Virus record (IMG/VR): IMGVR_UViG_3300025030_000067
Location: 1-64,000 of that record
Strand: one strand, 5' to 3'
Origin: a virus
Length of the DNA: 64,000 bases
The translations under genes and the position numbers were made by a program. The first letter of the stretch is position 1, and the number at the start of each line of letters is the position of its first letter. Under the pieces are notes generated by a model. The model did no database searches and was not told the DNA's origin. It saw only the letters and a list, made by a program, of their open reading frames with translations. This document shows, one piece after another, positions 1,111 to 27,629 of this stretch.

Positions 1111-3561
1111 ATGATTCTCAGATCAATTCGACTGAGGGGTTTTAGGGGATTCAGTGCTGGCATCGGTGTTGATGAAGTGTTTCTCGATCTGTCGGTTCTG
1201 CCTGACGGATTGGTTGCTGTCTGCGGTCCTAACGGTGCAGGGAAAACAACGCTGCTCGACAATCTGCATCCGTACCGAATCCAGCCGTACAAGATTCGCA
1301 AAGCCAAGGACTGGTCGCCTGGTGCGTTCTCATATTATGACCAGTGCTCCGGATCCGATGCGTGCAAAGAGCTGGTGTTCGAGATGGGCGGTGTCGCGTA
1401 CCGTGCTCTGATCCTGATCGATGCCGAGCGGCGCAAGCAGGAAGCGTATCTTTATCAGGCGTCTTCTGTCTGCGCCACAGTTCCGGTCTGGACTCCGCTG
1501 AATGATGGCAAGGTAAAGACCTACGACGAGGCCGTGGAGAAGGTCTGCGGTTCTCCGTCACTGTTCTTTACGTCCGTGTTTCGCTGCCAGGGCGCCAAGA
1601 ATCTTTCGGATTATACTCGTGGCGACATCATGCAGATTATCTCCGAGCTTTTGAATATTGATCATATTCGCGAGCAGTCAGAGAAATGCCGCACCGTTGT
1701 CTCTGGCTTGTCCGCTGGGCTGCTTCTGGCTCGTGACCGCATGGTTGGCCTGGCTGCCGAGTCAGAGGCCGCTGCGGGGCTTGAATTGGAGATATCGCGT
1801 GTCTCCATAAACAAGACCACCGACCAACTCGGGTTAGATAGCGGTCAAAGCGTTCTTGATGGAGTGCGAACGGAAATCATAAAAGTCCGGGAGCAGCAGG
1901 CCGCGCAGGAGTCGGAGGGCGTTCGCCTAACGATGCTTAAAACGCAGCTTTCTGAGGAGGAGCAGCGCCTCACCGAGGGGGGCGCCGCCGCTGTCAAGGC
2001 GATTGCCGACATCGATAAACGTATTGCTGATGTCGTGCTATCCCGTGATCGGGCCAAGGCTGGGCTGCAAGGCCAGATCACTAACGCTCTTACGTCCCGC
2101 GACAATGCAAAAACTGGTCTTCAGGAGCGCATTGCTCGAGCAGAAAAGATTATTTCGGGTGGCGCCGGTATTCGTGGTGCAGTGGCGAAAGAGTCTGGGC
2201 TTTTGGAAGATATCAACCGGGAGAAGTCAAGCCTTGCTCGGCTCACCAAGGAGCGGGATGAACGACGTGGCCACCTGTCTAAATGGGGAGCGGAATTGTC
2301 TGGCTTGAACGCTGAAATAAAGGCGCTTGAGCAGGCAGCGGCGAAGCTGGATGGCCTGGATTGTCATGGTGACGCCTCGGGCTGGCTAAATCCGAGCTGC
2401 CGGTTCATAGCAGATGCTGTTGCTGGGCGTGACTCGTTACCGGAATCAATTGCTCACCGGGATGCGCTGCAGGCGGATTTCTTGAAAATGCAGGGCTTAT
2501 TGTCGGAATCGGATAGTGCTGTTGGGGATTGCAACCGTGCCTTAGTCTCCGCAGAGGATGCGCTGAAAGAGTGCCAGAAGTTCACTCGTTTGCTCCCGGA
2601 GTTGGACCAGGCCGAGGCTAATCTTGTTGTTTGGAATAATGATCTGACCGACCTGGACAAACAGGCTGATGCCAGCATTGCTGCATGGCGCGATGATATG
2701 GCTGGTCTGGATAAGCGTGCCGAGGACGATCTGAAGGCTTTGGGCGGAGACAAGTGGCTGGCCGAGTCTGAGTGGGATTTGGCCCGTATCAGGATAAGCG
2801 ACCGCATCACGGAATTGCGCCGGGATATCGAAGCGTTTCCGGTCTTCGGAGATTTGGCCGGCCAGTTGCGGGAACTGATCATTCGTGAGGGTATCTCTCT
2901 GGCTGCAGTTACCAGTTTCGAGAAGCGGATTCATGATGCTGATATCGAAATTGCTGCGCTACGCACAAAGATGGAGGCAGCGCAGGCCAAATGCGGTGAG
3001 CTGGCTCTGCTAAAAGATAAAGAGGGTAAGCTCGCTGCTGAAATCGCGAAGTTCACTCTGCTAATGAAGGCATGCTCCAATGACGGCATTGTGGCGCTTG
3101 AACTCGATGATGCGGCTCCTTCTATTGCCTCCATCGTTAACGACCTGCTACGGGCGTGTTATGGCTCACGCTTTACGGTTCGCCTGGACACTCAGGCTGC
3201 AAAAGTAAATGGCGACATGAAGGAGACTTTCGACATCATAATTTTTGATGCGGATGCCGGAGACGAGAAGTCGATCACGGAGTGTTCCGGAGGGCAGGTC
3301 ACCGTTCTCGAGGACGCGATCACCCGGGGGATTTGTCTTTACAACATCCATCGTTCTGATCGTGTGTATGGGACGCTCTACAGTGATGAAAAAGACGGGG
3401 CTCTTGATGAAGCTCGCAAGCTTGAATTCATGCGAGTGAAGCGGGAGGCATTGCGGGTAGGCACTCACCGTCATGAGTTTTTTATTACCCAGACGCAGGA
3501 TCTCGTCGATATGGCTGATGCCCGTATTGTGCTGGCTCCGGGCGGTATCGTGATTCAGTAA
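1111..3561 (+). CDS. SbcC/Rad50-like ATPase (recombination nuclease subunit)
   Basis: 816 residues with the SMC/Rad50 layout. A Walker A GPNGAGKTT lies at residues 39-47, followed by a long Glu/Lys/Arg-rich coiled coil (about 200-700). The C-terminal half of the ATPase has the signature loop ECSGGQ near residue 725 and a final segment with HEFFITQTQ before ARIVLAPGG. At the presumed hinge (about 410-435) there is Cys-x10-Cys rather than a classic C-x-x-C zinc hook. Phage homologues (T4 gp46 type) work with a Mre11-like nuclease on DNA ends for recombination and repair. The nuclease partner would be outside the window. AGGAGG precedes the ATG, and a terminator follows. Confidence 0.85.
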   Translation: MILRSIRLRGFRGFSAGIGVDEVFLDLSVLPDGLVAVCGPNGAGKTTLLDNLHPYRIQPYKIRKAKDWSPGAFSYYDQCSGSDACKELVFEMGGVAYRALILIDAERRKQEAYLYQASSVCATVPVWTPLNDGKVKTYDEAVEKVCGSPSLFFTSVFRCQGAKNLSDYTRGDIMQIISELLNIDHIREQSEKCRTVVSGLSAGLLLARDRMVGLAAESEAAAGLELEISRVSINKTTDQLGLDSGQSVLDGVRTEIIKVREQQAAQESEGVRLTMLKTQLSEEEQRLTEGGAAAVKAIADIDKRIADVVLSRDRAKAGLQGQITNALTSRDNAKTGLQERIARAEKIISGGAGIRGAVAKESGLLEDINREKSSLARLTKERDERRGHLSKWGAELSGLNAEIKALEQAAAKLDGLDCHGDASGWLNPSCRFIADAVAGRDSLPESIAHRDALQADFLKMQGLLSESDSAVGDCNRALVSAEDALKECQKFTRLLPELDQAEANLVVWNNDLTDLDKQADASIAAWRDDMAGLDKRAEDDLKALGGDKWLAESEWDLARIRISDRITELRRDIEAFPVFGDLAGQLRELIIREGISLAAVTSFEKRIHDADIEIAALRTKMEAAQAKCGELALLKDKEGKLAAEIAKFTLLMKACSNDGIVALELDDAAPSIASIVNDLLRACYGSRFTVRLDTQAAKVNGDMKETFDIIIFDADAGDEKSITECSGGQVTVLEDAITRGICLYNIHRSDRVYGTLYSDEKDGALDEARKLEFMRVKREALRVGTHRHEFFITQTQDLVDMADARIVLAPGGIVIQ

Positions 3562-21969: not shown

Positions 21970-24585
21970 CTATTGTCCTTTCGGAGCGCTGATTATTGCT
22001 GATGTAATGTCCCTCACTGGCTTTACCACAATCCCATTGGTGGTGATGTAGTCAAATAATTTCTTCGTATAATCTTCCGAATACGGTGCATTTGTTGCCG
22101 GGTTGGCTGCCGAGTTTGGCCGCTCTCCCGGCTTCTTTGTTTTTTCTACCCTCTCTTCCACTTCATCGGTATATTTTGGTCCCAGTACCGTTTGCATCAC
22201 TGGGCTACGGTCGATGTCCTCTTGCCTGTATGCTCCGTCATAGATATTCGCGTATTTTTCTACAGTGTCTACATACCCGCTTGTGACTTTCGATTGTGGC
22301 AGATGTTTCTTCCAGTTTTTGGGATCTTTCTTCACCGCCTTGTCAACATTCCCTGGCCCTGCGTTATATGCCGCGAGCGCCTTTTCCTCGTCACCTTTGT
22401 ATCTGTCGAGCATTTGCTTGAGGTATTTTACCCCGCCGATCATATTTTGCGTTTCGTTGAATGGATCTCTTACCCCCATGTCTCTTGCCGTTTCGGGCAT
22501 GAGCTGCATAAGCCCTTTTGCCCCTTTGTCGGACACTGCATTGGGGTCGCCGCCGCTTTCTGCCTTGATGACAGCTTTTACCAGTGAAGGCCGGACTTTG
22601 TACTGCCGTGCAATCCTTTCGGCCTCAGACATCCGTTGCGCTTGTGGTCGGGTCGGTGTAGTGCCGGTGTCCTTTCCATAGGTGCCATCCGTAAAGTAGT
22701 CGAGTGCAAACTTGGTGCCCTCGTATGCTGCAAGCCCCGTTAATGCAGGTAGCACCATGCGTCCCATGATTGCTTTACCTGCTGCTCCGCCTGGGATCAT
22801 GTTGCTGATGGACGATGCGAACATGAGGGTTGCGGCTCCCATCATGAGCTTTCCTGCTGGTCCCGCTTCTTTCATGGCTCCTGCGATCGAATCAAAGGCA
22901 CCTTTCCAGTTCTGGTCGGTCAGTGCGCTTGCGAACGTCAATGCGCCGTCCTCGAACTTCCCAAACAGCTTGTTCAGCTGCTCTCCGGCCTCTATTTTTA
23001 CCATCTGCCGTTTTGCTTCCAGAGCTTCTTTGTTGATTGCCGGGTTTTTACCGATCTCCTTTTGCCATTCAGCGTATATCCGCTTGTCCTCCGCGCTGCC
23101 TTTGGACAGGTCACCTATTTTCTTCTTGCCGCCGTCGAGTGCCACTGAAAGCCTGTCAAAAAAGCTCGTTCCTGTTTTTTCATCCTTCTTTGACATAGCG
23201 ATCAATTTTTCGGCTGGCGCACCCTTTATGCCGGCTGCTTCCAAGAGTGTTTCAAGTTCTCCGGCTTTCCCTTTGTCTGTTGTTGAACGGAGACCGCCAA
23301 TCAGCTGAGACAGCAGCTTGGGATTCTCCATGAATCCGCCCTGCTTCATCACGTTCATGTCGTGGATCTTCTCAAAGTTCATTGGTCCTTTGAATCCACC
23401 CATCAGCTGGAATAACCGAATGTCTCCCGCTGCAGTCCCGGCACCTTGCAGGCCGTTCTGCATGAAGTTCTGAAAGTTTCCGCTCTTGGCGTACTGTGCA
23501 TAATCTGCCTTGCTCTGCGTGGCTTTCATCGCCTCTATCGCGAGAGCGGTGGCTTGCCCTGCCTGCTTATCGCTCCCGGCTCCACCCATGGCCTGTGCGG
23601 TCGCCTGCGTGTTCCGGCTGACCAGCTGCAGCAGTTCGGATGCTCGGGACTTGTCCATCCCTTTCTTGATCGCCTCGCCCATCATGGACAGTGCGCCGGT
23701 ACCGGCCTGTTGGTTACCGGTCGCCTGGTACATCGTGCCGTACATGCCTGCTACTTGGCTGGGGTCAGTTCCGGTGTACTTCGCGAACCTGCCGGACATA
23801 TTCGCTGCAGAATTGGCCTTCTTGCCGAACATGCCGGTTGACTGGCTGATTCCTTCCAGCATCTGCATCTGTTCGAGCGGGTCTATACCTGCGCTGACAC
23901 CGTCGTTATATCCGCTCTTGATGCCTCTGGCGTAGAGTCTGCCTTCATGGCCGACCGCCTGTTGGTACTGTGCTCTGGATGATCCAAGAAAGCCGAGTAG
24001 CGAGAAGCCACCTGCTGCCGCTAATCCCCACCCGACGGCCTTTTTGATGGTGTTGCCCATGGTGCTGGCTTGGCTCCCACCACCAGACGCTTCTTCATCA
24101 ACACGGCTTGTTACTGTACGGCCATAGTTCCCGTGTTCTTTAAAATAGCGGTCTGCCGCTGTCTCTCGCTTACGTGGTTCGTTGGCATCTTTCCAGAAAG
24201 CGTCTGCGGCTCTCTGTGACTCCTTATGCATTCTGGCTGATTCGGCAGATGACACCGTGCCTACGCCTGGTGCCGCTGTTGCCGCTGCGCCTCTGAACGA
24301 TGTCATTGTTTTTATCAGCTTGTCGTAGTCTTTGGCTATGTCCGATACGACTCTTCGTGTGCCTTCCATCTCCTTGCGATATGCAATTGCACTCTTGGCG
24401 GTACGATCCATTGCTCCGGCATTTACCGTTGCGTCAGTCCCAGGTGGACCTCCAGAATTGACACCTCCGACGATAGTGAATTCTTTATCGTTAAGCTTAC
24501 TGGCTTTGTCCGCAAGCAGTTCAACTTCCCTTTTAGCGTCTGTTACCTGCTGGCGGTTTACCCTGATATCAATGCCGATTCCCAT
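21970..24585 (-). CDS. tape measure protein with lytic transglycosylase domain
   Basis: 871 residues, encoded after the chaperone genes as tape measures are. The N-terminal half is helical and Gly/Ala/Gln-rich. Membrane-like Gly/Ala segments lie near 190-210 and 580-620. An SLT (goose-lysozyme-like) domain lies at about 655-780: PSLVKAVIKAESGGDPNAVS with the catalytic Glu in the AESGG motif, GLMQLMPETA, and ALAAYNAGPGNV. The protein sets tail length and cuts peptidoglycan during DNA entry. GGAGGATACGCAG precedes the ATG. Confidence 0.92.
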   Translation of the reverse strand: MGIGIDIRVNRQQVTDAKREVELLADKASKLNDKEFTIVGGVNSGGPPGTDATVNAGAMDRTAKSAIAYRKEMEGTRRVVSDIAKDYDKLIKTMTSFRGAAATAAPGVGTVSSAESARMHKESQRAADAFWKDANEPRKRETAADRYFKEHGNYGRTVTSRVDEEASGGGSQASTMGNTIKKAVGWGLAAAGGFSLLGFLGSSRAQYQQAVGHEGRLYARGIKSGYNDGVSAGIDPLEQMQMLEGISQSTGMFGKKANSAANMSGRFAKYTGTDPSQVAGMYGTMYQATGNQQAGTGALSMMGEAIKKGMDKSRASELLQLVSRNTQATAQAMGGAGSDKQAGQATALAIEAMKATQSKADYAQYAKSGNFQNFMQNGLQGAGTAAGDIRLFQLMGGFKGPMNFEKIHDMNVMKQGGFMENPKLLSQLIGGLRSTTDKGKAGELETLLEAAGIKGAPAEKLIAMSKKDEKTGTSFFDRLSVALDGGKKKIGDLSKGSAEDKRIYAEWQKEIGKNPAINKEALEAKRQMVKIEAGEQLNKLFGKFEDGALTFASALTDQNWKGAFDSIAGAMKEAGPAGKLMMGAATLMFASSISNMIPGGAAGKAIMGRMVLPALTGLAAYEGTKFALDYFTDGTYGKDTGTTPTRPQAQRMSEAERIARQYKVRPSLVKAVIKAESGGDPNAVSDKGAKGLMQLMPETARDMGVRDPFNETQNMIGGVKYLKQMLDRYKGDEEKALAAYNAGPGNVDKAVKKDPKNWKKHLPQSKVTSGYVDTVEKYANIYDGAYRQEDIDRSPVMQTVLGPKYTDEVEERVEKTKKPGERPNSAANPATNAPYSEDYTKKLFDYITTNGIVVKPVRDITSAIISAPKGQ

Positions 24586-24652: not shown

Positions 24653-24672
24653 AGGGAGCCGTTAAGCTCCCT
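24653..24672 (-). terminator. Rho-independent terminator
   Basis: GGGAGC and GCTCCC (loop TTAACG, which contains the stop codon of the chaperone frame) followed by TTTTC on the minus strand. It separates the tail tube/chaperone genes from the tape measure, which has its own promoter-like site. Confidence 0.75.
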
Positions 24673-25003
24673 CATCTTTTGATTCAATCACTACTGGCTC
24701 CCATTTGTCTCCGTATAACTCTTTGTTTAAATCGATCTTTTCTCCTGCTTCAATCCTAGCGAATATGTCATCTACTCCCGCATCTCCCGACAACTCTATG
24801 TCGCAGGTCGGGCACTTGTCGCGGTGAGTCGTCATTTCGCATGTGAAGCATGTTTTGAGCGATTTACCTTCCGCTGCCAGGGACATCTCATATTCAAGAG
24901 AGATTTCCTCGTCGGTGATGCTGGTGTATCTAACGTCATTGACCGGCAGGTTGTACTTTGTCCGGTACCAATAACGCAGGCTGTTTATCTCCCTCGCTGC
25001 CAT
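24662..25003 (-). CDS. tail assembly chaperone, second frame
   Basis: 113 residues. It overlaps the end of the preceding chaperone frame by 68 bp in the +1 (or -2) frame, directly upstream of the tape measure, the classical place for a tail chaperone made by frameshift (lambda G/GT, Mu-like). It has C-F-T-C and C-P-T-C, a zinc knuckle pair, near residues 52-70, and an acidic end. An ATG with GGGAG in front would allow separate initiation as well. Confidence 0.7.
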   Translation of the reverse strand: MAAREINSLRYWYRTKYNLPVNDVRYTSITDEEISLEYEMSLAAEGKSLKTCFTCEMTTHRDKCPTCDIELSGDAGVDDIFARIEAGEKIDLNKELYGDKWEPVVIESKDEGA

Positions 25004-25376
25004 CGCTCCCAGTTGCTTTGGGTCGAAAGGAGTTTAGGTGCTTTTGGACCTCGTGCCATACGGCCAGTATTGCGTCTTCGTCTTCGTCTTCGTGCATCTC
25101 CGCCAAGTCGAACCATTTCGGCAGCGGCACGGTCGAAGTCGTCTCTACGAATGTGACGATGTACGACAGCAGTTTAAGGCCTTCCCCGATCAGTTCTGGA
25201 TTAACGGCACCGAATTCCGACATGGTGACGGCGTCACGTAGAGCTATTGTGCGCTTGTCCAGCAGAGATGGTCTGCGAATGGAAAAAGACCCAGCGTATT
25301 TGCTACCAAATGGCTTTCCCGTGGTGGGGCAGAGTGCGCTTTCAATGTTGAATTCTGTTATCAGTGGTATTGACAT
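24936..25376 (-). CDS. tail assembly chaperone, first frame
   Basis: 146 residues between tail tube and tape measure. It begins MSIPLITEFNIESALCPTTG and contains helical, acidic stretches (EMHEDEDEDAILAVWHEV). Such proteins bind the tape measure and recruit tube subunits. The last about 22 residues overlap the second chaperone frame. AAGGAGCC precedes the ATG. Confidence 0.75.
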   Translation of the reverse strand: MSIPLITEFNIESALCPTTGKPFGSKYAGSFSIRRPSLLDKRTIALRDAVTMSEFGAVNPELIGEGLKLLSYIVTFVETTSTVPLPKWFDLAEMHEDEDEDAILAVWHEVQKHLNSFRPKATGSDGSEGDKQPALLVPDKVQPAGQ

Positions 25377-25437: not shown

Positions 25438-25851
25438 TTATCGCTGGGAAACGCGGTGTCTTGCCAAAATTTGAAAATTTTCGCCGGTCACTTGATGCTT
25501 GGTGTATCTGCGGCTGTGGGTGTTGAACTTGCAGCCGGTGTAGTTCTCGATGGTGGTGCCGGAGACGGTGTCAATGACTTCTACCGAGAGTTCCGGAGCG
25601 GTCAGCCATTCGTCGCTGTTGGGTACGAACCCGAGCTTTTCCAGCGTTTCCGCTGCCACCAGGTATTTCTCGCCGCTGATGCGGTGGGTGAGTTTGCCAA
25701 CAACGTGCTCCACGACTTCTACGTCGCCGAGCCCGTCCACTTCCTGGAGATTGAAATCGTCTTCAAAACTTACGTTCTGGCAGGTTCCGATTGCCTCTCC
25801 CTTCATCTTCAGTATAACCCTGTTGCCGGTTGCGGTATTCTTAACAGCCAT
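25438..25851 (-). CDS. tail tube protein
   Basis: 137 residues directly after the sheath gene, the normal position of the tube (P2 FII, T4 gp19 type). It is beta-rich (NRVILKMKGEAIGTCQNVSF, then VEVVEHVVGKLTHRISGEKYLVAAETL and LSVEVIDTVSGTTIENYTGC) as expected for a hexamer-forming barrel. Tube rings stack on the tape measure inside the sheath. Confidence 0.85.
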   Translation of the reverse strand: MAVKNTATGNRVILKMKGEAIGTCQNVSFEDDFNLQEVDGLGDVEVVEHVVGKLTHRISGEKYLVAAETLEKLGFVPNSDEWLTAPELSVEVIDTVSGTTIENYTGCKFNTHSRRYTKHQVTGENFQILARHRVSQR

Positions 25852-25865
25852 GATTTATGCCCTCC

Positions 25866-27629
25866 TTACAGGCCGATACTGAACTTTGTGGGTTGCAGGT
25901 GGTAGGTCGAGAAGATCCAGTTTACTGGCAGGATCGGCTCGGCGAAGTAGTCCACGTAGCGGATGGTTCCATCCACTCGCAGTTGGGTTTTTTTCGGGTC
26001 GAAGTAACGGATGTATTCTTCCCGTTTTGCAGCCTCGAGGACGGCATTGGTCAGGTTGACGATGGTGATGTCCAGGCTTTCTGTGCCTGGCTTGCCCACC
26101 AACAGCTCGTGACGGTTGCGGATCTCTCTGGCGATGTAGTCGGCGCCACGGCCAACCGAGAACTCGATACGGTACAGATCGTCGTTCTGGTTCCAGGTGG
26201 TGAGCTGGCGGCTGATTACATATCCTGCTCCTTGCACTGCATCGGGGATCGGGATTGCCACGGCGCTTTCGAGCAGGGTTTCGATCTCGGAGATGCGGAG
26301 CTCCACTTCGAGCCCGAGGCAGCGCAGGTATTTGCGGGTAAGCGGCTCAACCGGAGAGCTGCCGCCTGCAAGTCCGGCATACATGCATGCCGTGATGTAT
26401 CCCGGATAAAGCTTGATATTACCATCGTGGTCATAAAACTTGGCACCGAGGCCGACGTGCATTGTCCGGTCGCTGTTAAGATTCTTGACTGCGGTCTGTA
26501 ATGCGGCGATTGCCGTGAGACGGGCTGCTTCGCTAACCCAGCTCTGGAGTGCTCCGCCAACGAAGCAACGACGCTCTGATTTGCCGCTTGGACCACTCAT
26601 ATAGGCGCAATGCGCGTCTGCCATGGAATGGATTGCCGCTGCAGACGTGATCGGCACAATCAGGTCTATCTTCATGGTTTTCAGCAGGTCGAAGGCTGCC
26701 TGCCAATCGTTGTTGGTGGTCGTGCCATTCGAGCCACCATTCAGGAAAGTCCAGCCAACATTTGCCGGGATCGTGCCGGCGTCAGTGTTGCGTGAGGCAA
26801 GCACGTATCCTGACAGTTTGTTGATGCCATCCACGATCGCCTGCAGGTCGGATTTGGCTGTGAACGCTGCTGTCTTGACGTCCTGTGTGGTTACCGTATC
26901 AAGCTGAATGGATAGGTCAGTCTTTGGCTGTTTTGTGGTTGCAACAGCTGTGTACTTCGCCACTCCGGCAACGTTGAAGCTGTTGATGGCGTCTACCAGT
27001 GCCTGAATGGTTGTGAAGGAGTTCAGGTCGAGATTCAGGTTGTCAGCGGCCACGGCTGTTGCATTGGTGGTCAGCAGGTGCGTGGCGGCAGAGATGTTTA
27101 CGGTCATGGTGCAGGACGCGGCGGCTCCGGTGTACTGGATGCTGAACGAGTCCTTGGTCAGGTTGTCGAAAATTTCAGCATTGTCGACGTACTGAATTGT
27201 GACCTTCTTGCCTGTGGTCCCGGCTTCGATTTTGGCTTTCACCTGGTTGGCTGTCTGGCCGAATAGGTAGCTGGTCAGCGTGAGCACGTCAGCAACCGCA
27301 GCATCTTTGAATGTCTTGCTCGATGCTGTCGCAGGGTTTACCGGAATCAGATAGACTTCGCTGGCTCCCTGTGCGCCTGGCGATGGATCGAACAGCAACT
27401 GTGCGCCCAGCCGTGCCTCTGCCGAGTCGGGATGAACCAGCTGGTTCACCAGCGATGGGCTGTTGATTTTGATGGCGGTTCCTGGCGGGATAAGCCCGAC
27501 CATTTCCGCGAGAATCGCTACCTTGTTTGCCCCACCAAGTGGACTGTTGGCCAGTGCCGACGAATCGATGCGGCTGGCAGCCTGGGGGATCAGGTAGTAT
27601 TTACCGTTCCAGAGAACTCCTTTGCCCAT
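25866..27629 (-). CDS. tail sheath protein
   Basis: 587 residues. Sheath features: an early PLGGANKVAILAEM strand-helix, a middle domain that varies between phages (about 120-330), then GWTFLNGGSNG, MKIDLIVPITS, AHCAYMSGPSGKSERR, and a C-terminal domain with TTWNQNDDLYRIEFSVGRGADYIAREI. This last part is the conserved inner domain. Contraction of the sheath drives the tube through the envelope. The middle insert has repeated Ala/Thr strands. Confidence 0.92.
   Translation of the reverse strand: MGKGVLWNGKYYLIPQAASRIDSSALANSPLGGANKVAILAEMVGLIPPGTAIKINSPSLVNQLVHPDSAEARLGAQLLFDPSPGAQGASEVYLIPVNPATASSKTFKDAAVADVLTLTSYLFGQTANQVKAKIEAGTTGKKVTIQYVDNAEIFDNLTKDSFSIQYTGAAASCTMTVNISAATHLLTTNATAVAADNLNLDLNSFTTIQALVDAINSFNVAGVAKYTAVATTKQPKTDLSIQLDTVTTQDVKTAAFTAKSDLQAIVDGINKLSGYVLASRNTDAGTIPANVGWTFLNGGSNGTTTNNDWQAAFDLLKTMKIDLIVPITSAAAIHSMADAHCAYMSGPSGKSERRCFVGGALQSWVSEAARLTAIAALQTAVKNLNSDRTMHVGLGAKFYDHDGNIKLYPGYITACMYAGLAGGSSPVEPLTRKYLRCLGLEVELRISEIETLLESAVAIPIPDAVQGAGYVISRQLTTWNQNDDLYRIEFSVGRGADYIAREIRNRHELLVGKPGTESLDITIVNLTNAVLEAAKREEYIRYFDPKKTQLRVDGTIRYVDYFAEPILPVNWIFSTYHLQPTKFSIGL

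Follow-up and report, generated by a model that had tools for sequence, protein, structure and literature searches.

A conserved UUU_CGA site points to probable programmed +1 frameshifting in a phage tail assembly chaperone gene pair

The window analysed here, 64,000 nucleotides of a 90,534-base virus record (IMGVR_UViG_3300025030_000067), carries its tail genes on the minus strand. Two overlapping ORFs lie between the tail-tube and tape-measure genes, as G/GT-type chaperone pairs do, and the question raised by this locus is how the second of them is expressed. A sequence-only reading had taken the ORFs for a tail chaperone gene pair with a likely recoding event, a view that we share. The 68 bp overlap that it gave on the minus strand (24936-25003, from the first ATG of ORF2 to the stop of ORF1) was correct, as was its +1/-2 frame relation. 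The ORF starts are 373 nt apart (25376-25003), which places ORF2 in the +1 (equally, -2) frame and not in the -1 frame of canonical tail chaperones. On the sequence evidence set out below, the pair very probably encodes one tail assembly chaperone in two forms by way of a programmed +1 frameshift at UUU_CGA. The features of the locus were assigned as follows.

25866..27629, minus strand: tail sheath protein (PHROG 279).
25438..25851, minus strand: tail tube protein (PHROG 985, labelled virion structural protein); position matches the SPO1 tail tube gene.
24936..25376, minus strand: ORF1, short tail assembly chaperone (TAC-N), 146 aa, assigned from the ORF, its predicted structure and weak fold matches; residues 1 to ∼119 form the folded domain and the remainder is a poorly conserved post-slip tail.
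25023..25031, minus strand: putative shift site TCC_TTT_CGA (E-, P- and A-site codons), with TTT at 25028-25026 and CGA at 25025-25023.
24662..25027, minus strand: ORF2 frame read from TTC onward, a C-terminal extension (T-like domain; core LRYWYRTKYNLPVND) that is probably made as part of a fusion; codon changes after the slip are mostly synonymous in this frame and frame-wise conservation crosses over at the site.
24662..25003, minus strand: ORF2 from ATG 25003, 113 aa; the ATG, shared by only 4 of 11 clade members, is unlikely to be the functional start.
24662..25376, minus strand: proposed +1 fusion product TAC-NC, 237 aa, with a match to PHROG 25000.
21970..24585, minus strand: probable tape measure protein with an SLT transglycosylase domain (PF01464, E 1.2e-28), directly after the chaperone pair; position matches the SPO1 tape measure gene.

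The ORF2 frame is open upstream of its ATG as far as 25033, with a TAA at 25036-25034, and the stretch open in both frames is 25033-24936. An overlap between ORF1 and ORF2 is by itself not unusual; an in-frame TTT_CG inside it exceeds chance. A tRNA scan of the window found none. In L001, a close relative of the window, a 368-aa ORF (2003-3109, minus strand), which we take to resemble a LAGLIDADG-type homing endonuclease, lies just upstream of the tail tube gene and antisense to the tail genes.

The sequence-only reading had placed the slip at ACCCAAAGC or TGGGAGCGA and had proposed slip-site conservation as the test. The test was sound, and when it was run it pointed elsewhere. Both strings are present in the window but go no further than its closest relatives; each is found in just 3 of 11 aligned clade members. 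L021, L011 and L013 carry T as the second base of ACCCAAAGC, and in the clade alignment TGGGAGCGA does not extend past the closest relatives. One of three close viral contigs has ATCCAAAGC in place of ACCCAAAGC and GGGGACG in place of GGGAGCG. The element that is conserved is UUU_CGA, just upstream of these candidates: CTTTCGA is constant in the three close contigs despite variable flanks, and across the clade alignment (n = 11) TTTC is invariant and the next G is kept in 10 of 11.

The spread of the site was determined from 83 loci dereplicated into 63 clusters. These comprised 72 viral loci from an ORF2 profile search (A5), the window, six isolated-phage records (Touem01, Dolphis, Jeremy, ST4, PHB04 and phiT5282EW) and four loci fetched by sheath protein. 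L001-L003 and L006-L008 (same contigs as L019-L021), L010 (which ends before ORF2) and L004 (identical to the window) were excluded before counting. An in-frame TTT_CG was found within the jointly open stretch of 59 of the 63 clusters against 3.3 expected from codon shuffling of each ORF1, and an in-frame TTT_C in 61. TTT_CG was the top in-frame 5-mer, the runner-up occurring in 24 clusters. In the window the plain TTTCG string is no commoner than expected (160 copies against 168), and the site itself lies in frame in the overlap with the +1 frame open beyond it, as at other UUU_CGN sites.

Further sets were added to these. TTT_CG was present in Yersinia phage fHe-Yen8-01 (1 of 1) and at all five loci from bacterial genome assemblies (a Desulfobacterales MAG, Rhodovarius, Methylovulum, Microvirga and Geminicoccus). 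Herelleviridae were reached by a search with the L030 fusion protein, which led to Goe26 and EalM-132, and then with Goe26 ORF1, which led to SPO1 and others; the window family and SPO1 also share PHROG 25000. TTT_CGN stands at the junction in 9 of 10 Herelleviridae (EalM-132, Goe26, SPO1, Adastra, Twort, LysYB1, BM15, LpeD and SPO1L5) and in 12 of 12 further contigs from a scan with SPO1-type ORF1. Pooled over all sets the site occurs in 86 of 91, or in 83 of 88 lineages once three near-duplicates (L093, L117 and L120) were removed. It falls inside jointly open stretches as short as 17 nt (Twort, BM15) and 38 nt (L088).

The five lineages without TTT_CG are L028, L031, L032, L082 and phiBsKO1-1 (L113). 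L028 (2500-2511) has TTT_CAA followed by CCT TAA TGA, with ORF1 stopping right after the slip position; it is the sole lineage in the set with CAA as A-site codon. L031 has TTT_CCC, and L082 has a -1-type pair. The SPO1-type chaperone ORF1 of phiBsKO1-1 (∼1438-1701) is interrupted, possibly by an intron or a sequencing error, in a record that is unannotated. L032 (2447-2932) is an ORF2-family member with an ATG behind SD-like purines and no TTT_C, and may have exchanged frameshifting for separate initiation.

The reading frame under selection switches at the TTT_CG site. Codon differences were summed over all pairs of four close relatives, pairs that are not independent of one another. Upstream of the site, differences in the ORF1 frame were synonymous in 249 cases and not in 102. 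Over the 75 nt after the slip, the counts were 37 synonymous and 20 not in the ORF2 frame, against 8 and 42 in the ORF1 frame. In a wider sample of 84 sites and 3458 diverged pairs, the per-codon BLOSUM62 mean fell past the site from ∼+0.4 to -0.2 in the ORF1 frame and rose from ∼-0.6 to -0.1 in the ORF2 frame. L056, in which the upstream sequence is cut, was left out of this wider sample, of the uncut-alignment counts and of the start-codon and SD counts given below.

A beginning of ORF2-frame homology exactly at the Phe codon was considered and rejected: among uncut ORF2-frame local alignments of 771 pairs, 433 started at least 3 residues upstream of the Phe, only 60 within 2 residues and 278 downstream. 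The upstream starts may be due to overprinting by ORF1. Starts of tblastn matches at the Phe are uninformative, the query having begun one residue before it, and neither the invariance of Phe1 in A5 and A6 nor the ends of the SPO1-type matches, both of which reflect cut points, were used as evidence.

The main alternative is that ORF2 is translated on its own from ATG 25003 into a 113-aa protein, either with GGGAG as ribosome-binding site or through coupling to ORF1. The sequence-only reading had offered this start as another explanation; it exists in the window, 2 nt after GGGAG, but is not supported family-wide. The GGGAG-ATG spacing is short, and the ATG and GGGAG are limited to the closest relatives, the ATG to the minority of clade members given above. 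Some ATG, GTG or TTG precedes the core in the ORF2 frame of 49 of 61 lineages, but the other 12 have none between the upstream stop and the core motif, and if only the post-slip part is counted a start codon is missing from 32 of 62. L032, described above, belongs to the same family, lacks TTT_C and has SD-like purines ahead of its ATG. Against this, the seven codons between the site and the window ATG show 9 synonymous differences and 6 not in the ORF2 frame, compared with 0 and 11 in the ORF1 frame (the numbers are small), and separate initiation leaves the conserved TTT_CG unexplained. We consider it very unlikely.

Profile comparisons are consistent with a single fused protein. The window fusion matched PHROG 25000, ‘tail assembly chaperone’, at E 4.1e-5, with protein residues 26-163 aligned to profile positions 36-168 in one stretch across the junction, and 19 of 20 fusions matched across the junction (E up to 0.01). 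Window ORF1 alone gave no PHROG match and ORF2 alone reached E 0.084 to PHROG 25000; single pieces can match it among relatives (27 of 47 ORF2 proteins, and the ORF1 of L030). PHROG 25000 was found in 11 of 12 related records and was missing from that of L078. The continuity of the profile probably derives from annotated SPO1-type fusions, because both SPO1 pieces fit it strongly (E 2.8e-67 and 2.3e-50), and it is no independent case of a natural single-frame gene.

Pfam gave no match for either window ORF at E up to 1, and five scattered families among 47 relatives at E up to 0.01. Weak matches to a double zinc ribbon were seen in 2 of the 47 relatives. A zinc-ribbon-like CxxC...CxxC stretch occurs in window-clade ORF2 (24665-25003, minus strand) and is absent from the Touem01/PHB04 clade. 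A PDB sequence search returned nothing below E 0.69, and tblastn of the whole window fusion found no match in the phage collection. The AlphaFold model of ORF1 was confident up to residue ∼119, and from residue 122 onward its pLDDT was mostly under 50; the slip codon is residue 117, and the predicted fold ends at the shift site. The top PDB match to the model was the HK97 tail assembly chaperone 2ob9 (Z 4.4, a low score within 1 of several lower-ranked matches), and named viral fold matches, all weak, included the tail assembly chaperones of Bacillus phage JL and Lactobacillus phage 521B.

In the proposed mechanism, most ribosomes would translate ORF1 to its stop and yield the short chaperone form. 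A minority would slip +1 at UCC_UUU_CGA, the P-site tRNA-Phe giving up UUU for UUC, with which it pairs better, as CGA is awaited in the A site. Slipped ribosomes would read ...HLNSF-DPKQLGAM... into ORF2, giving the 237-residue form, the C-terminal domain of which may recruit tail-tube subunits to the tape measure protein by analogy with lambda gpG/gpGT.

The codons at the site fit such a +1 slip. TTT makes up 47% of upstream Phe codons, yet it is the Phe codon at the junction in 85 of 88 lineages and TTC in none; the three lineages lacking a TTT_C site (L032, L082 and L113) were excluded from the codon set, leaving 85 sites. The E-site codon is TCC or TCT at 43 of these 85. CGT, CGA and CGC are all common as A-site codons; CGG stands at 1 of 83 CGN sites, against 72 of 351 CGN codons upstream. 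The window clade has CGA at 10 of 11 sites and CAA at the other; CGA is not extremely rare in the window phage (7.6 per 1000 codons).

A -2 slip in the same overlap, as in phage Mu, would reach the same frame as +1, and had been suggested by the sequence-only reading. Re-pairing after a -2 movement is possible at TTT_TTT_CGT sites (8 of 85), but in the window such a slip would bring tRNA-Phe onto CCU, unlike the re-pairing of the Mu type. The suggestion is not supported by the comparison of sites and is extremely unlikely, because the codon just before UUU, where the tRNA would have to re-pair, takes 17 forms at the 85 sites while UUU_C, including the C needed for +1, is constant. For SPO1 the predicted +1 junction peptide is AYDNWYHSFVNQVNPEK; a -2 slip would give ...HSFFVNQ....

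A +1 slip elsewhere in the overlap, for example at CCC_AAA (25022-25017) or GGG_A (25010-25007), is likewise exceedingly improbable: both strings are in the window and CCC_A could re-pair as CCA, but CCC_AAA is TCC_AAA in L021 and L011 and missing in others, and the in-frame GGG is not retained in most clade members. Least probable of all, despite a Phe-Arg pair near-invariant in 37 aligned ORF1 proteins (all from TTT_C lineages), is that TTT_CG is kept only for Phe-Arg in the ORF1 protein with no frameshift, since Phe would then be TTC about half the time, Arg would be free to use AGA, AGG or CGG, ORF1 is little constrained right after the site, and the open, conserved ORF2 frame and the 12 of 61 lineages with no start codon would go unexplained.

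Possible stimulators of a +1 slip at UUU_CGA were sought on both sides of the site. Of 84 sites, 40 have an SD-like stretch (duplex energy ≤ -6) in the 18 nt before them, compared with 11% of control windows in the same ORF1s; the strong elements are typically AAGGAGG, with pairing that ends 4-5 nt before UUU. The element is absent from the window (anti-SD duplex energy +0.6 kcal/mol) and its clade, and is present in 4 of 19 of the Herelleviridae set. No general 3' RNA structure was detected over 62 sites (mean z -0.17, with 8 below -1.5; window z -1.64), and 3' structure as a stimulator is unsupported. The use of CGA as a compensating slow codon in lineages without an SD found weak support on the full set (17 of 44 against 8 of 40, p 0.09). 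Without Herelleviridae the counts were 15 of 29 against 8 of 36 (p 0.02), and in the first set, in which the contig-edge L056 was counted as SD-less, 16 of 29 against 7 of 33 (p 0.008). With related lineages that are not independent, the association of CGA with a missing SD is suggestive at most.

The closest known counterpart of the window pair is gp10.2/gp10.2-gp11.1 of SPO1. The order sheath, tube, chaperone pair, tape measure is the same, as is the +1 relation, and the SPO1 records (NC_011421, FJ230960) annotate gp10.2-gp11.1 as a +1 slippage product. The Adastra record also annotates a +1 product. The junction is TCC_TTT_CGT in SPO1 and TCC_TTT_CGC in Adastra, and TCC_TTT_CGA in the window. 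By homology, +1 relation and shared junction the window pair is, as far as sequence comparison goes, a SPO1-type +1 tail chaperone. The SPO1-type phages differ in having Bacillus hosts and genomes of ∼130-150 kb, and in sequence they are distant from the window. The announcement of Bacillus phage Moonbeam calls its +1 shift unusual (PMC4299906).

A +1 shift had thus been annotated (SPO1, Adastra) or reported (Moonbeam) in some of these phages, and UUU_CGN was known from influenza PA-X and from amalgaviruses. The window is a new, unannotated member, and it is the conserved site and its spread across phage groups that we have not found described. Outside Herelleviridae, the feature tables of Touem01, Dolphis, Jeremy, ST4, PHB04, phiT5282EW and fHe-Yen8-01 annotate no slippage product here, and in open-licence PubMed Central papers no paper was found that links UUU_CGN sites to phage frameshifting.

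Most accounts of tail chaperone frameshifting describe a -1 shift, and the +1 cases on record appeared exceptional. If the site works as proposed, +1 slipping on a single fixed motif would be the way in which a wide and largely unannotated range of phages produces the tail chaperone, and the second ORF should be annotated in them as part of a fusion. Bacterial reporters would then provide a simple system for the poorly understood UUU_CGN mechanism. UUU_CGN is also a sharp search key for +1 shifts that can be missed by tools built on XXXYYYZ or stop-codon sites.

On balance we favour the view that UUU_CGN is an ancient and widely kept +1 signal in the tail chaperones of a very broad group of contractile-tailed phages with Gram-negative and Gram-positive hosts, and that it is the same site as is used on eukaryotic ribosomes by influenza A virus and by the amalgaviruses, which are double-stranded RNA viruses of plants. 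If so, slipperiness would be intrinsic to tRNA-Phe on UUU_C with CGN waiting, and not a matter of rare tRNAs or of a particular ribosome; some lineages would boost the slip with an SD-like element and others, like that of the window, would not.

Among known systems, PMC5009743 reviews three types of tail chaperone frameshift (-1, -2 and +1) and considers +1 very likely in an archaeal myovirus. The lambda G/GT shift and the usual -1 tail chaperone shift, such as that at GTTTTT in Vandenendeviridae, are treated in PMC5009743 and PMC12846349. By these accounts such systems resemble the window in having a short and an extended isoform of the chaperone encoded ahead of the tape measure gene, and differ in the opposite direction of the shift and in their slip motif. 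Bacterial prfB, as outlined in PMC12421855, shares a P-site slip on a pyrimidine run and an SD-like element upstream, as at the SD-bearing phage sites. In prfB the slip happens at a stop codon and the SD stands 3 nt before the slippery sequence, whereas the phage sites have a sense codon in the A site and an SD that, if present, mostly ends 4-5 nt upstream, with none in the window. For plant amalgaviruses, PMC5052127 proposes UUU_CGN as the +1 motif, with all four CGN codons and overlapping ORFs in +1 relation; they differ in that their ORF1+2 fusion is of another kind and in that the phages are nearly without CGG. The influenza A virus PA-X site, UCC_UUU_CGU, is identical in string to the SPO1 junction; for it PMC3498833 favours UUU to UUC re-pairing and predicts a UUU_C class of sites in which the A- and E-site codons are restricted. 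PA-X has the same kind of E-, P- and A-site string as UCC_UUU_CGA of the window, on a eukaryotic 80S ribosome and in an unrelated gene, a likeness that implies no descent.
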